DNA of 64,000 bases, from contig PBSN01000025.1 in the NCBI GenBank assembly GCA_002726235.1, positions 1-64,000 of the forward strand, in the 5' to 3' direction. The translations under genes were made by a program, and so were the position numbers. This document shows, one piece after another, positions 47,276 to 56,407 of the stretch; within the stretch, counting starts at the first letter, position 1, and every line of letters begins with the position of its first letter. Below the pieces are notes generated by a model that was given only the letters and a program-made list of their open reading frames with translations, was not told where the DNA came from and made no database searches. Source of the DNA: Nitrospiraceae bacterium (GTDB lineage Bacteria > Nitrospirota > Nitrospiria > Nitrospirales > UBA2166).

Positions 47276-47920
47276 ATGAGCGATGATTACACGGACATTG
47301 ATGATTGTTGTACAAATTTTGCAGGTGTATTAGTGACAAAAGAAGCTCCTGATTTTGTGGCACCAACCGTCATGTCTGATGGTACCGTAAAAGAGGATTT
47401 TAGACTCTCTGACTTGAAGGGAAAATACGTAGTGCTCTTCTTCTGGCCTCTTGACTTCACCTTCGTATGTCCTACGGAAATAATCGCCCATGACCATCGC
47501 ATTGATGAGTTCAAAAAACGCGGTGTTGAAGTCGTGGGAGTGTCCATCGATTCGCAGTTCACTCATTGCGCATGGCGGAACACGCCTCCAGAGAAAGGGG
47601 GCATTGGTCAAGTCCGGTTTCCGATGGTGGCCGACGTGAAACACACTATCGCCCAAGCATATGGTGTCGAGCACCCAGCAGGCGTTGCTCTTCGAGCGTC
47701 ATTTCTTATTGACAAGGCTGGCATCGTACAACATCAGGTTGTGAACAATCTTCCCCTTGGAAGAAACGTTGATGAGATGCTACGGATTGTTGATGCGTTG
47801 CAGTTCACCGAAAAACACGGGGAAGTATGCCCTGCTGGATGGAACAAAGACAAAGAGGGTATGAAGGCAACAGCAGAGGGCGTCGCAAAGTATCTCATTG
47901 CACACTCAAAAGATCTTTGA
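47276..47920 (+). CDS. ahpC: Typical 2-Cys peroxiredoxin (AhpC/Prx1)
   Basis: 214 residues. Peroxidatic cysteine C65 in WPLDFTFVCPTEIIAHDHRI, resolving cysteine C185 in GEVCPAGWN, and SIDSQFTHCAWRNTPPEKGG. An extra N-terminal stretch with a CC pair (C11, C12) precedes the usual start KEAPDFVAPT. It reduces H2O2 and organic peroxides with a thiol donor. A strong AAGGAG site precedes the ATG, 28 bases after perR, so the two form a peroxide-response operon. No ahpF is nearby; thioredoxin is the probable reductant. Confidence 0.95.
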   Translation: MSDDYTDIDDCCTNFAGVLVTKEAPDFVAPTVMSDGTVKEDFRLSDLKGKYVVLFFWPLDFTFVCPTEIIAHDHRIDEFKKRGVEVVGVSIDSQFTHCAWRNTPPEKGGIGQVRFPMVADVKHTIAQAYGVEHPAGVALRASFLIDKAGIVQHQVVNNLPLGRNVDEMLRIVDALQFTEKHGEVCPAGWNKDKEGMKATAEGVAKYLIAHSKDL

Positions 47921-47980
47921 TTTGGAAAATCCAAATAATAGCCCATCGCAAAATACCAGGGACTAGCAGAATTTAATAAT

Positions 47981-49309
47981 ATGTCTGAACCTCGACTTCT
48001 TAAATATCGCCACTCCCCTTCTTGGGATATCGATGCCTATGTCAAGAATGGGGGGTACCAGGCCCTACAAACCTGTGTCACTACACTCACCCAGAATGAG
48101 ATCATCACACAGGTGAAACAGGCCGGGCTTCGAGGCCGCGGAGGGGCGGCATTCCCCACTTGGCTTAAATTCGACAAAGTCCTGAACCACGAGACAACTG
48201 AACATCATTTCGTCTGCAACGCCGGCGAACACGAGCCAGGAACGTTCAAAGACCGGCATCTTCTTCGTACCAATCCACACCAAATCATCGAGGGGTGCGC
48301 CATTGCAGCATACGCGGTAAATGCGACAACGGCATCAGTCTATATCAACAACGACTATGCCGAGGAAATTGGCATTTTCAGAAAAGCATTGGCACTAGCC
48401 AAGGACGGTGGGTATCTGAGAAGGACAGTGTTCGGAAGTGATGCTGATTTGAACATCGAAGTCTTCGTTGGAGCAGGAAGTTACGTAGCCGGCGAGGAAA
48501 CGGCAATGCTGGAATCGATGCAAGGCCGCCCGGCCATACCGCGACAGAAACCGCCATTCTACCCAACAGAATTTGGTCTACACGGAAAACCTACTTTGGT
48601 AAACAACGTAGAAACCATTTCGAATCTTCCTCATATTATTCAACACGGAGCTGCGTGGTTCTCAAGCGTTGGAACGGCAAAAAACCCCGGCACGATGTTG
48701 TTCTCACTCAGCGGAGCGGTGAATCGCCCTGGAGTGTATGAACTATCTTTGGGCACACCCCTAAAAACGCTCATTGATGAGTATGGCAACGGCATCCCCG
48801 GTGGCCACGAGGTCAAAGCGGTCTTTCCGGGCGGACCGTCGTTTGCGATGTTACCCGGCACACAACTGGACGTGCCACTCGACACTGAAGCACTCAAGCA
48901 AGCTGGATCGGGCTTAGGTTCAGCAGGCGTAATCGTGATTGATGATCAGACCTGCATGATTGATACGATGTTACATTTTATGCGCTTTTTTCAGAGAGAA
49001 AGCTGTGGGCAATGTCCGCCCTGCCGCCTAGGAACGATTAATCTCAAATCGGGCATCCACAAAATTCATTCTGGAAAAGGCAGTGAACGCGATATCGACA
49101 CCTTAATTGAACTCTGCAGATTTGCAAAGGGACAAGGGTATTGTACATTGGTCACGGGAGCAAGCGTTCTGCTGGAAAGTAGCATTCGCTATTTTCGAAA
49201 TGAATATGAAGCCCATATCCATGGGGCACCATGTACCCTTCGCCCCTACTCGCCAGCCACCTCGCACGCTGTTGAAATTGTTGACCAAGCGCAGACCGGC
49301 ACAGCATAA
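47981..49309 (+). CDS. NuoF-like NADH-binding flavoprotein
   Basis: 442 residues, the length of NuoF. FMN-binding GLRGRGGAAFPTWLKFDKV, the nucleotide loop VGAGSYVAGEETAMLESMQG, a SLBB-like segment and the N3-type [4Fe-4S] cysteines C342, C345, C348 and C388 (ESCGQCPPCRLG). The usual CNADEGEPGTFKDR reads CNAGEHEPGTFKDR. No nuoE or nuoG is adjacent; instead a ferredoxin follows 5 bases later and an A-type Fe-S carrier after that. It may be the NADH subunit of complex I encoded away from the rest, or part of a small NADH-ferredoxin system; I cannot tell which. Confidence 0.85.
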   Translation: MSEPRLLKYRHSPSWDIDAYVKNGGYQALQTCVTTLTQNEIITQVKQAGLRGRGGAAFPTWLKFDKVLNHETTEHHFVCNAGEHEPGTFKDRHLLRTNPHQIIEGCAIAAYAVNATTASVYINNDYAEEIGIFRKALALAKDGGYLRRTVFGSDADLNIEVFVGAGSYVAGEETAMLESMQGRPAIPRQKPPFYPTEFGLHGKPTLVNNVETISNLPHIIQHGAAWFSSVGTAKNPGTMLFSLSGAVNRPGVYELSLGTPLKTLIDEYGNGIPGGHEVKAVFPGGPSFAMLPGTQLDVPLDTEALKQAGSGLGSAGVIVIDDQTCMIDTMLHFMRFFQRESCGQCPPCRLGTINLKSGIHKIHSGKGSERDIDTLIELCRFAKGQGYCTLVTGASVLLESSIRYFRNEYEAHIHGAPCTLRPYSPATSHAVEIVDQAQTGTA

Positions 49310-49314
49310 GTGTT

Positions 49315-49626
49315 ATGATGCCACACATTGAATTTGTTCATCCCAACGGCACATCCGGCGAAGTCGAGATGAACATCACGCTTTTGGAAGCAGCTCAACA
49401 ACTCGGATTTCCTCTCAAACACGAATGTGGTGGAAGTGCAGCATGTTCCACATGCCGCGTCGAGGTCAAAGAAGGGGCAGAAAACCTTAATGAGATTGGT
49501 TTCGATGAGCAAGACCTTCTCGACCGTGAGGAAATCGGTGAACCGTGGCGGCTGGGGTGCCAAGCGCGGCTCCTTGGTGATGTGAAAGTCTGTGTCCCAA
49601 GCCATGCGGAGAGCCATATCAGCTAA
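49315..49626 (+). CDS. [2Fe-2S] ferredoxin, adrenodoxin type
   Basis: 103 residues with cluster ligands C38-x5-C44-x2-C47 and C82 (HECGGSAACSTCRVEV; RLGCQARL). The C-x5-C-x2-C spacing is that of the adrenodoxin/ISC ferredoxin group rather than the plant type (x4). Such proteins supply electrons for Fe-S assembly or to oxygenases. It begins 5 bases after the NuoF-like gene, so the two are co-translated and the flavoprotein could reduce it. The first or second ATG may be used. Confidence 0.92.
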   Translation: MMPHIEFVHPNGTSGEVEMNITLLEAAQQLGFPLKHECGGSAACSTCRVEVKEGAENLNEIGFDEQDLLDREEIGEPWRLGCQARLLGDVKVCVPSHAESHIS

Positions 49627-49722
49627 TCTCTACCCAAAAACTCACATGATGATTCCCAATATGATATCCTTAACAGCTACGGTGCTGTTGCAGTCTTTAA
49701 TGCATGGCAAGGAGAAAAAACC

Positions 49723-50043
49723 ATGGTTACCGTCACTGAAAAAGCCGAACACAAAATTAAGGAATTGATGAATGAAGAAGAAGACATGATTGGCCTTCGC
49801 GTGTACGTCAAAGGGGGAGGATGCCACGGATTCTCATACGGAATGTCATTTGAGTCTGAGCCCACTGATGAGGACAATATTTTCGAGAAAGCCGGCGTCA
49901 AAGTCATCATCGATCCTCAGAGTTCCCCATTGCTTTTAGGATGTGAGATCGACTATGTTGACAGCCTTCAAGGCTCAGGGTTTTCGGTCAAGAACCCTCA
50001 GGCAAAAACTACCTGTGGATGTGGGTCGTCATTCGGCGTCTAA
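49723..50043 (+). CDS. A-type iron-sulfur carrier (ErpA/IscA family)
   Basis: 106 residues of the HesB/IscA/ErpA fold with the three conserved cysteines: C34 in KGGGCHGFSYGMSFE and C98, C100 in TTCGCGSSFGV. It delivers Fe-S clusters to apoproteins. A strong AAGGAG site precedes the ATG. Placement 96 bases after the ferredoxin gene suggests it helps mature Fe-S proteins, perhaps the two just upstream. ErpA and IscA cannot be separated by eye. Confidence 0.92.
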   Translation: MVTVTEKAEHKIKELMNEEEDMIGLRVYVKGGGCHGFSYGMSFESEPTDEDNIFEKAGVKVIIDPQSSPLLLGCEIDYVDSLQGSGFSVKNPQAKTTCGCGSSFGV

Positions 50044-52351: not shown

Positions 52352-52807
52352 ATGAAAATTATTCTTCAGGAAGAGGTTGAGAACGTCGGACACATCGGTG
52401 ACATGATTGATGTCTCGAAAGGATTCGCGAGAAACTTTCTCTTGCCCAAAGGAAAAGCGATTGAGGCCACAACTCGCAACCTCAAACAACTTGAACATGC
52501 CAAACGCATGGTGGCAGATAAGGCAAAAAAAGCGAAGGGAGAGAGCGAATCATTCGCCAGAAAATTAGTTGAAACGCCAGTCACTATCACCGTTGCGGCA
52601 GGTCCAGACGGAAAACTTTTTGGATCAGTGTCCGGAAAAGATATTACGGATGCCCTTGCCAAACAGGGCATCGAATTGGATAAACGAAAAATTACCATGG
52701 AGCATCCGCTCAAGGAATTGGGAAGTTTCGTTCTCCCAGTGAAATTGCCCAATGATGTGATGGCCTCATTAACCGTCAACGTCGTCCCAGAAACGCCTGA
52801 GGACTAA
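52352..52807 (+). CDS. rplI: 50S ribosomal protein L9
   Basis: 151 residues: N-terminal domain [20 protein letters not shown] and [17 protein letters not shown], a connecting helix rich in Lys/Ala, and a C-terminal domain with [26 protein letters not shown] site precedes the ATG. In many bacteria rplI follows rpsF, ssb and rpsR; here it lies between phoU and glyA, so the usual cluster is split. Confidence 0.97.
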
Positions 52808-52817
52808 CGGATACATT

Positions 52818-54062
52818 ATGACCTCTCTTTCCCACGTTGATGCTGATGTCCATCAAGCGATCATACGGGAAATTGATCGTCAACAACATCGCCTTATCCT
52901 TATTGCATCAGAAAACCTCGCCAGCCAAGCCGTGATGGAAGCGCAAGGCTCCCTAATGACGAACAAATATGCTGAGGGATATCCCGGGCGACGATATTAC
53001 GGGGGATGTGAGAACGTCGACATCGTTGAACGCTTGGCTATCGAACGTGCGAAGCAACTGTTTGGCGCCGACCACGTGAACGTACAACCGCATTCTGGCT
53101 CTTCTGCAAACATGGCCGCCTACCTATCCGTTCTTAAACCAGGTGATCCTATTTTAGGAATGGATCTTCCCAACGGAGGACATCTTACCCACGGGCATCC
53201 TGTCAATTTTTCGGGGATCTTGTTTCAGTCATTCTCGTATGGAGTCGATCGCAACACGCAACTGATTGATTACGATGTGGTGGAACGCATCGCCAAGGAA
53301 TGTAGACCAAAGATGATCGTTGTCGGTGCCAGCGCTTACGCGCAAACCCTTGACTTCAAGCGATTTCGTGCCATCGCAACATCAATCGGTGCCTATCTTC
53401 TTGCCGATATCGCACACATTGCAGGCTTAGTCGCCGCCGGGTTACACCCCAGCCCCATTCCCCACGCTGACTTTGTCACAACGACGACACACAAAACCCT
53501 ACGTGGTCCCCGCGGAGGTATAATCATGTGCCGGCAGGAATTCGCAAAAGCCGTGGACAAAGCCGTTTTCCCGGGATTGCAAGGCGGGCCGCTCATGCAC
53601 GTGATTGCTGCAAAAGCAGTTGCACTGAAGGAAGCGCAATCACAGAATTTTCGAGCGTATCAGCAACAGGTGATTACGAACGCAAAAGTGTTAGCCGGAG
53701 AACTCCGGCAAAGAGGCTATACGATCGTCTCCGGTGATACGGACACCCATCTCTTCCTGGTAGACCTGAGCCCAAAGGGCATTTCTGGAAAAGCTGCCGA
53801 ATTAGCTTTAGATGCCTCAGGAATCACCGTCAACAAAAACACAATCCCGTATGACCCTCAGCCCCCAGCCATCGCCAGTGGAATTCGCCTTGGAACGCCA
53901 ATCGTATCATCTCAAGGGATGGGTCCATCGGAGATGGCACTGATCGCGGCATTGATCGACCGGGTCATTGGGAACCTCAATGATCCCACGATACATGAAA
54001 CCGTCAAATTAGAAATACAATCACTGTGTGGGAAGTTTCCCAATAAGAGGTTGACCACGTGA
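52818..54062 (+). CDS. glyA: Serine hydroxymethyltransferase
   Basis: 414 residues. PLP-dependent fold type I enzyme with [40 protein letters not shown] and the lysine motif [16 protein letters not shown]. It interconverts serine and glycine while loading the one-carbon unit on tetrahydrofolate, so it ties in with the folE/PabB-type genes of the window. It overlaps nrdR by 4 bases. Confidence 0.97.
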
Positions 54063-54511
54063 AATGCCCATTTTGCCATCACCTTGATGACCGCGTCGTT
54101 GACTCACGACTCGCCAAGGAAGGAGAAGTTATCCGCCGTCGCCGTGAGTGCCTCAACTGCAAACGAAGAGTCACTACCTACGAACGTTTTGATGACGTTC
54201 TCCCCATGGTAATCAAAAAAGATGGCCGCCGTGAAGCCTACGATCGCCGAAAAGTTATTTCCGGACTTCGTAAAGCCTGCGAGAAAAGGTCCATCAGCCA
54301 CGCGACCATCGAAGGCGTTGCAGACCGCATTGAGAAAAAACTCCAGGAACAAGGAGAATCCGAGATCCCGAGCCAGCCAATTGGGGAATTGGTTATGATC
54401 GAGTTGCATCACCTCGACCCCGTTGCCTACGTTAGGTTTGCTTCAGTCTACCGAGAGTTTAAGGATATCCAAGAATTTTCTGAGACCATCAGAAAACTCT
54501 CAGTAGACTGA
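54059..54511 (+). CDS. nrdR: Transcriptional repressor NrdR
   Basis: 150 residues: a zinc ribbon (C3, C6, C31, C34; [16 protein letters not shown] and [15 protein letters not shown]) followed by an ATP-cone ([20 protein letters not shown]). NrdR senses ATP/dATP and represses ribonucleotide reductase genes. The start is a GTG overlapping the glyA stop (GTGA). glyA-nrdR pairing is common. Confidence 0.96.
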
Positions 54512-54561: not shown

Positions 54562-55713
54562 ATGACGCCACAACACGTTCAATCTAAAAAACCAGAGCCC
54601 CTCACTAATGTGGCCATTATCGGCTGTGGCAACGGCGGCAAGGCCCTGATGGAGATGTTTGCCGGCGATGCACTGGTTCGCATCGTAGGGATAGCCGAAA
54701 TAAGCCCAACCGCTATGGGCGTACCTCTCGCAAAAAAATTAGGGATTCCGATACGAAAAAACTTCCGCACGATTCTCAATTCCAGCGACATCGACTTAGT
54801 GATCGATGTGTCCGGCAACCCCACCGTCGAAGCTGCATTACTCAACGTCAACCGGCCAGACATGGCTATCATCGGGGGACCGAACGCGAAGTATATGTGG
54901 CAACTGATCGATGCCAGAATCCGTGCGAAGCAAGAAACTGAGCAACAACTGAATAAATACCAGCATCTTGCACGTCTCTATGTAAAAGAGGCAGCTTCTG
55001 CCGTCTCTGAGGAACGTACCCGTATTGCCTGCGACATCCACGACGGCCTGATCCAAACCTTGGTCGGATTGAATTATAAACTTGACTTGTGCCAAGCTCT
55101 TGCAGAACAAGATAGCGCACAATGCCTTGAGGTGCTCACTGAAATCAAAACTCAACTCAGGAGTAGCATTGAGGAGGCTCGCTATGTAATTTTCAACCTG
55201 AGACCGTTGCTCTCAAGTCAACTCGACATGATCCCAGCAGTCAAAAACTACCTAAAGTCATTTGAGGCGCAGGCGCGCATTAAGACTGTCTTTTGGTCTG
55301 AGGGCCATGAACGGGCACTCGGCTCCAAAACGAAAATCTTTCTATTCCGCATCATTCAAGAGTCCCTAAGCAACGTACGCAAACATGCAAAGGCAACCCA
55401 AGTCAAAGTGAGCGTTGACATACAGAATCATCGCGTCCTCACCACCATTGAGGACAATGGAATCGGATTCGACGCTGAGATGGCATTTCAAAATGCCTTC
55501 ACTTGGGATTCATTTGGTTTGAGGGCCATTATCGAGCGGGCACGAATCATCGGCGGCGATGCAACCATCGAATCTCAGCACGGAAATGGAACACGAATTA
55601 CTGTTGAGAGCCCGATCAGCAGACCACGATCGAAAACCTCAACGCGCAGTTCCCTCCCGATGGTCTCCTCAGTAAAACGCGTGTCAAGAATAAAGAAGAA
55701 ACACCGTGGATAG
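54562..55713 (+). CDS. Soluble histidine kinase with N-terminal Rossmann (dehydrogenase-like) domain
   Basis: 383 residues and no membrane helix. Residues ~14-118 are a Rossmann fold: a GxGxxG loop (VAIIGCGNGGKALMEMF, G21, G23, G26) and DIDLVIDVSGNPTVEAALLN, like the nucleotide-binding domain of aspartate/homoserine dehydrogenases. A helical linker (~118-150) leads to a HisKA_3 dimerisation domain with H160 in EERTRIACDIHDGLIQTLVG, then a HATPase with N-box RIIQESLSNVRKHAKAT and G-boxes EDNGIGFDAE and SFGLRAIIERARIIGG. It overlaps the LuxR-type regulator gene by 8 bases. I infer that it senses a dinucleotide or a metabolite; the ligand is unknown. Confidence 0.85.
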   Translation: MTPQHVQSKKPEPLTNVAIIGCGNGGKALMEMFAGDALVRIVGIAEISPTAMGVPLAKKLGIPIRKNFRTILNSSDIDLVIDVSGNPTVEAALLNVNRPDMAIIGGPNAKYMWQLIDARIRAKQETEQQLNKYQHLARLYVKEAASAVSEERTRIACDIHDGLIQTLVGLNYKLDLCQALAEQDSAQCLEVLTEIKTQLRSSIEEARYVIFNLRPLLSSQLDMIPAVKNYLKSFEAQARIKTVFWSEGHERALGSKTKIFLFRIIQESLSNVRKHAKATQVKVSVDIQNHRVLTTIEDNGIGFDAEMAFQNAFTWDSFGLRAIIERARIIGGDATIESQHGNGTRITVESPISRPRSKTSTRSSLPMVSSVKRVSRIKKKHRG

Positions 55714-56407
55714 CCAGGACATCATTAAAGTCCTCATCGTTGACGATCACCACGTCGTTCGAGAAGGCATTTCTTCAATCCTGAACATCGTGGATGGTAT
55801 CGAGGTATCCGGGGAAGCGAAAGATGGGCGAGAGGCGATTGAACAAGCCAGAGCACTGCTTCCCGACGTCATACTGATTGATATCAGCATGCCTCAGATG
55901 GACGGAGTGATAGCCACACGCGCAATAAAGAGCGAGCACCCTCATATAAGCATCATCGCGCTCACCATGTACGAAGAAGAACAGTACATTTATGACATGA
56001 TCCGTGCCGGCGCAACAGGATACCTCCTGAAAGACACCGATTCATCTGACCTCATCAAAGCTATCCGAGCGGTCTATCGCGGAGACTCCATGATCAATCC
56101 ATCGGTCGCGAGCAAGATATTGTCCGAGTTCTCTCAATTGTCAGAAGAAAAAGGGAAACGGACTCGCGTCGACCACGCCCTCACCGAGCGTGAACTCTCG
56201 GTCATCCGGCTCCTCGCTGAAGGAAAAACAAACAAAGAAATTGCCAATGCCTTAGACCTCAGTGAGAAAACGGTTAAGAATCACGTACGTAATATCTTTC
56301 ACAAGCTTCACGCCTACGATCGCACGCACGCCGCCATGCTGGCCCTTCGAAAAGGCTTAATTGATCTAGACGAACTCGACGTTACGCCATATGACGCTGA
56401 ATCATAG
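55706..56407 (+). CDS. NarL/FixJ-type response regulator
   Basis: 233 residues. Receiver domain with acidic pair D13/D14, phospho-acceptor D59 (DVILIDISMPQMDGV), T87 and K109; output domain LuxR-type helix-turn-helix (ALTERELSVIRLLAEGKTNK, SEKTVKNHVRNIFHKLHAYD). The GTG start overlaps the kinase gene by 8 bases, so this is the kinase's partner. HisKA_3 kinases pair with NarL-type regulators. Target genes are unknown. Confidence 0.95.
   Translation: MDSQDIIKVLIVDDHHVVREGISSILNIVDGIEVSGEAKDGREAIEQARALLPDVILIDISMPQMDGVIATRAIKSEHPHISIIALTMYEEEQYIYDMIRAGATGYLLKDTDSSDLIKAIRAVYRGDSMINPSVASKILSEFSQLSEEKGKRTRVDHALTERELSVIRLLAEGKTNKEIANALDLSEKTVKNHVRNIFHKLHAYDRTHAAMLALRKGLIDLDELDVTPYDAES

Follow-up and report, generated by a model that had tools for sequence, protein, structure and literature searches.

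What does a cytoplasmic histidine kinase sense if the only module ahead of its kinase core is a dehydrogenase-like Rossmann fold? This question is raised by a two-gene locus of a Nitrospiraceae bacterium, located in the stretch of 64,000 nucleotides analysed here (contig PBSN01000025.1, hereafter the window). The original prediction, made from the sequence alone, described a cytosolic two-component system of this layout, suggested that the module binds NAD(P)(H) or a related ligand for sensing, and named as checks a Rossmann fold in residues 14-118, conservation of the GxGxxG loop in homologues, and conservation of the fusion and its neighbours.

52352..52807, + strand: rplI, upstream neighbour conserved within the order (gene order in relatives)
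52818..54062, + strand: glyA, conserved upstream neighbour (gene order in relatives)
54059..54511, + strand: nrdR, conserved upstream neighbour (gene order in relatives)
54562..55713, + strand: sensor histidine kinase, 383 aa, ATG start (Pfam domains and structure model; full-length orthologue in 40/40 relatives)
54601..54915, + strand: Rossmann input domain, residues 14-118 (Pfam, N-domain model with pLDDT 90.4, Foldseek, profile family)
54901..55011, + strand: linker helix from sensor to kinase, residues 114-150 (part of one modelled helix, residues 107-183)
55012..55206, + strand: HisKA_3 dimerisation/phosphoacceptor domain with His160 (Pfam; H160 invariant)
55336..55617, + strand: HATPase_c domain, residues 259-352 (Pfam; N271, D298, G300 and G302 invariant)
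55706..55713, + strand: overlap of the kinase and regulator genes, 8 bases (ORF coordinates)
55706..56407, + strand: NarL/LuxR-type response regulator, 233 aa, GTG start, with REC at residues 9-121 and GerE at 158-213 (Pfam Response_reg and GerE)

A soluble two-component system conserved across Nitrospirales

Pfam searches and structure modelling show that the kinase consists of the Rossmann input domain, a helix, HisKA_3 (residues 151-215, E 5.5e-15) and HATPase_c (residues 259-352, E 1.2e-11), in this order. No PAS or GAF match was listed in the Pfam search, and the full-length model (pLDDT 77) depicts a soluble protein in which the alpha/beta domain leads directly into the kinase helix and the kinase core is DesK-like, being closest to the DesK fold. 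The catalytic residues H160, N271, D298, G300 and G302 are invariant in 37 orthologues. With its conserved N and G1 motifs and an adjacent REC-GerE regulator, in which we take Asp59 to be the phosphoacceptor by its position, the pair constitutes a two-component system of the HisKA_3/NarL type; autophosphorylation and phosphotransfer are inferred. The predicted coordinates, layout, 8-base overlap and kinase-regulator unit were confirmed by the ORFs, Pfam and gene order in relatives, as was the claim of a soluble kinase with the Rossmann module as its only input and no PAS or GAF domain.

All 40 Nitrospirales relatives searched, representing 14 genera and four families of this one order, encode a full-length orthologue of the kinase, with identities of 49-88% where complete, and at each orthologous locus inspected the regulator adjoins the kinase. 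Every inspected Nitrospirales locus, from 54 genomes by our own count, has the gene order glyA-nrdR-kinase-regulator, which also occurs in genomes of four further families of the same class. The kinase-regulator pair occurs without an adjacent nrdR in eight other genomes; in G201, nrdR is located 3.7 kb away. Only rplI-glyA-nrdR is conserved beside the kinase. No conserved downstream target gene was found, as the genes 3' of the regulator vary between the loci of relatives, and no common regulatory element was evident by eye in the nrdR-kinase gap of 68 loci, some of them from the same genomes.

The source genome (1.87 Mb, 91% complete) encodes this kinase as its single HisKA_3 kinase, alongside two HisKA kinases. 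That a genome with just three identified histidine kinases retains it points to a role preserved through streamlining. Because the genome is a 27-contig draft, the fusion could be an artefact of chance, mis-assembly or pseudogenisation in one metagenome-assembled genome. However, this is all but excluded by the orthologues in 40 of 40 relatives of 14 genera, which include independent MAG records and two single-contig genomes, and by the HisKA_3 version of the domain forming one supported clade (99/94).

Fold, nearest enzymes and conserved residues of the input domain

The only Pfam match over its cut-off at the kinase N-terminus is the generic GFO_IDH_MocA NAD-binding fold (residues 16-86), which with an E-value of 5.2e-5 passes just barely. 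The N-domain alone, modelled from 45 diverse members, reached a mean pLDDT of 90.4, and the check for a Rossmann fold in residues 14-118 was thereby passed. The best Foldseek matches in the PDB are the acetaldehyde dehydrogenase DmpF (1nvm; E 1.7e-5, TMq 0.60) and 4lrt (TMq 0.66), followed by Gfo/Idh enzymes, inositol dehydrogenase and homoserine dehydrogenase, all of which are NAD(P) enzymes. Sequence-profile searches retrieved the same enzymes and, in addition, Rex (5zz5, E 0.0028). The models contain no ligand, and these E-values and TM-scores (~0.6 on the query) indicate a fold relation rather than membership. The predicted likeness to aspartate or homoserine dehydrogenase held in part: the NAD(P) dehydrogenase fold is right, but DmpF-type acetaldehyde dehydrogenases and Gfo/Idh enzymes score better by both sequence and fold, and aspartate and homoserine dehydrogenase were rejected as the nearest enzymes.

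The C-terminal catalytic or substrate domain of dehydrogenases is absent from the kinase, as had been predicted; the helix and HisKA_3 follow directly after the N-domain. PDB sequence matches to the domain profile stop at or before profile position 94, ahead of a GGxSAKxMWxLI segment that no solved chain among these matches covers. Compared with a full Rossmann dehydrogenase, the domain is also missing the final strand, and dinucleotide binding could therefore be weak. No Pfam or NCBIfam family naming the domain was found.

Residue conservation was counted over 115 distinct near-full domains:

54622..54639, + strand: dinucleotide loop GCGNGG, residues 21-26 (G21 in 115/115, G23 97%, G25 95%, G26 93%)
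54697..54699, + strand: Glu46, the acidic residue closing beta-2 and presumed contact for the adenosine ribose of NAD (Asp or Glu in 115/115)
54805..54819, + strand: DVSGN loop after beta-4, residues 82-86 (G85 98%, D82 as D/N 99%)
54874..54900, + strand: GGPNAKYMW signature at the N-terminal end of the output helix, residues 105-113 (G106 97%, A109 90%, W113 98%)

A57 is likewise invariant (115/115). Both the GCGNGG and the IDVSGNP motifs are present as claimed, and the check for conservation of the GxGxxG loop in homologues was passed at the frequencies listed for G21, G23 and G26. The usual form of the loop is GAGxGG, with the Cys being peculiar to the source genus, and a departure from GxGxxG is seen in the f31 and f32 hybrids. 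The C-terminal signature, GGxSAKxMWxLI in its family form, leads into the output helix and is absent from the nearest NAD enzymes.

In Rossmann enzymes, NAD(H) is favoured over NADP(H) where beta-2 ends in an acidic residue, which NADP binders usually lack. A sensor for NADP(H), or for a different nucleotide-type ligand (SAM, UDP-sugar, F420), would be consistent with weak matches of F420_oxidored, PglD_N, DapB_N and Sacchrp_dh_NADP in some of the 45 members. However, the acidic beta-2 end is invariant here and the other matches are few, which makes this alternative unlikely.

A family of signalling proteins and its sigma54 branch

The N-domain profile found matches at E<=1e-8 in 165 of 296 Nitrospirota genomes, and a signalling output directly follows the input domain in 114 of 115 distinct copies. 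The outputs comprise HisKA_3 and HisKA kinases, GGDEF proteins, sigma54 activators, hybrid kinases and one chemoreceptor. The HisKA kinases often adjoin a receiver gene (five loci), the diguanylate cyclases are of the GAF-GGDEF type (three loci and others), sigma54 activators were identified in eight loci, and hybrid proteins of ~1,100 aa with the order GAF-PAS-HisKA-HATPase-REC-GGDEF in a further eight. The N-domain of the window kinase fits the family definition in its match to profile A4, GxGxxG, acidic residue 46, D(V/I)(S/T)G, GGxSAKxMWxL and direct output junction. Since the catalytic domain is absent and an output comes directly next in 114/115 copies, we conclude that the Rossmann piece is an input domain dedicated to signalling, as yet without a name, which six or more types of signalling protein share. 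This is shown for the architecture, whereas sensing is inferred. That the domain is not special to the kinase goes beyond the original prediction.

The lone exception (L058:2836-3645, - strand, in a single-contig genome) encodes the N-terminal part of a REC domain, the Rossmann domain and the C-terminal part of REC in one gene.

Outside Nitrospirota, one MCP-type chemoreceptor with the input domain was identified in Acetoanaerobium in the plasmid collection searched. No copy was found in viral contigs, nor in any of 150 Methanobacteriota genomes at 1e-8, which are rich in Rossmann enzymes, although this set lacked a positive control. The wider collection of genome contigs was scanned with a single sequence only, and breadth in other phyla is therefore under-sampled. 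The Acetoanaerobium record (NZ_CP154629.1) is listed as a plasmid, yet it comprises 2.63 Mb with 4 annotated features and is probably a mislabelled chromosome.

The domain might no longer bind a small molecule and instead act in dimerisation or in docking another protein, for example a dehydrogenase or flavoprotein. The Rossmann domain is short, W113 and the output-side signature match the loop in their degree of conservation, and in the sigma54 activator RtcR it is bound proteins that control the CARF Rossmann domain (PMC9650030). However, G21, acidic residue 46 and A57 are kept in 115/115 copies across outputs without a common partner, which would be unexpected without a ligand, and we regard a pure docking role as improbable.

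In the domain tree, the HisKA_3 version forms one clade (99/94), which groups with the sigma54 clade (100/98) and with one diguanylate cyclase (92/92). The deep forks are weak because few columns are available. The computation shows a single, ancient origin of the kinase fusion.

The genes surrounding the sister sigma54 proteins provide a link to NADH that belongs to these proteins and not to the window kinase. The sigma54-type regulator is located directly downstream of a gene of the lactate/malate dehydrogenase family (NAD-type mdh) in 8/8 loci and precedes a gene for a NuoF-like NADH-oxidising flavoprotein (Complex1_51K) in six of the seven loci with a readable contig. A correctly oriented -24/-12 sigma54 promoter was identified just downstream of the regulator in 7/7 loci; it matches the consensus at 11-12 of 12 positions in six of them and at 10 in L128, compared with a shuffled background of 0.01 per kb at >=11 positions. 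In all seven loci, this promoter lies 56-94 bp upstream of a gene for a small CxxC protein, which is followed by nuoF except in L070, a locus that retains the CxxC gene but lacks nuoF. Because the loci share a common ancestry, they do not represent seven independent events. The mdh and NuoF-like flanks together with the sigma54 promoter suggest that these domain proteins probably control an NADH-oxidising operon beside an NADH-making enzyme, and the sigma54 activators with this input domain likely represent a local NADH-linked regulon.

A CoA or acyl-CoA thioester is a further candidate ligand, in which case the system would report acyl-CoA supply rather than NAD(H). The Pfam model CoA_binding matches the window domain weakly (E 2e-4, at or below its cut-off) as well as 10 of the 45 members, and the nearest enzymes are CoA-acylating aldehyde dehydrogenases, which also use CoA. 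However, NAD(P)-type models have the wider coverage (GFO_IDH_MocA 41, DapB_N 34 and NAD_binding_3 21 of 45), the invariant acidic beta-2 end is an NAD-binding feature of classical dehydrogenases, and the sister paralogues are flanked by NADH enzymes, not by acyl-CoA enzymes. A CoA ligand is thus unlikely, although it remains, with the ligand-free docking module, a main rival to NAD(H) sensing.

Proposed function and comparison with known systems

We propose that the kinase reads the cytoplasmic NAD+/NADH state through its Rossmann domain, a reading to which we assign a probability of roughly 0.6. It is favoured because of the fold, the invariant G21 and acidic residue 46, the genes and promoter of the sister clade, and the near-absence of Rex, the usual NADH sensor: of 118 Nitrospirota genomes, a single one had its domain PF06971 over the cut-off, none of the listed Nitrospirales did, and the source genome gave no match. 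The predicted sensing of NAD(P)(H) or a related ligand is thereby supported for NAD(H), specifically by the acidic beta-2 end and the neighbours of the sister sigma54 proteins, but no ligand assay or other ligand evidence exists, and the ligand, the activating redox form and the targets are inferred. Mechanistically, NAD+ or NADH would bind the Rossmann cleft via the GxGxxG loop and Glu46, and the difference between bound states would pass via the GGxSAKxMWxLI segment (W113) into the 77-residue helix that runs to the dimerisation domain. The change in this helix may alter autophosphorylation of His160 or phosphatase activity, and phosphotransfer to Asp59 in the REC domain of the paired GerE regulator would then alter transcription.

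The kinase shares the HisKA_3-HATPase_c core and the REC-GerE regulator with known systems of the NarL/UhpA family, such as NarX/NarQ, UhpB, DesK/DesR and LiaS. Unlike these, it lacks a membrane sensor and has a cytosolic Rossmann domain as its sole input. What is new is hence an unrecognised class of input domain, whereas the two-component type is already known. The nearest Rossmann domains by sequence and fold, those of DmpF/BphJ acetaldehyde dehydrogenases and Gfo/Idh/MocA oxidoreductases, have GxGxxG in common with the kinase, but the kinase lacks their catalytic domain, the similarity ends before GGxSAKxMWxLI, and membership of a dehydrogenase family is not met. Rex resembles the kinase by profile and likewise has a Rossmann domain, which in Rex senses the NADH/NAD+ state; for the kinase this role is inferred, and the invariant acidic beta-2 end is compatible with it. 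However, Rex is a one-component DNA-binding repressor, while the kinase signals by phosphorylation; the N-terminal winged-helix DNA-binding domain of Rex (PF06971) was not found in the kinase, and Rex membership is likewise not met. RtcR-type sigma54 activators also place a Rossmann-type input on a sigma54 activator, but CARF is a different Rossmann family and RtcR, which binds RtcAB, is linked to RNA repair (PMC9650030). A full-text search of open-access papers retrieved no Rossmann-input histidine kinase, and no domain of this kind was seen in the relevant passages of a survey of clostridial sigma54 activators (PMC6615313). Within this literature, the earlier claim that no system of this layout has been characterised held.

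How redox state is coupled to gene expression in Nitrospira and its relatives is poorly known. If the domain senses NAD(H), it would supply the missing redox sensor in Nitrospirota and define a reusable sensor domain so far unnamed in Pfam and NCBIfam. To our knowledge, no histidine kinase has previously been reported to read NADH directly, and the window kinase would be the first. In a bolder version of this hypothesis, which we consider as likely to fail as to hold, the domain would replace Rex in Nitrospirota as a general module for sensing NADH/NAD+, with one redox readout feeding phosphorelay, sigma54 transcription and c-di-GMP, as well as chemotaxis in a Bacillota relative; the window kinase would represent its core version, passed on vertically in all Nitrospirales, including the nitrite oxidisers.

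A positional tie of the kinase itself to NADH genes was considered and rejected. A nuoF-like/ferredoxin/erpA operon lies 5 kb upstream of the kinase only in the window and in the genus relative G003 (L021, L167); it is not near the kinase in other Nitrospirales and was therefore not used as evidence for the kinase. In the window (47276-50043), ahpC, the nuoF-like gene, a 2Fe-2S ferredoxin gene and an erpA-like gene follow a fur-like gene in a row, which is a relative of the operon bearing the sigma54 promoter in other Nitrospiria.
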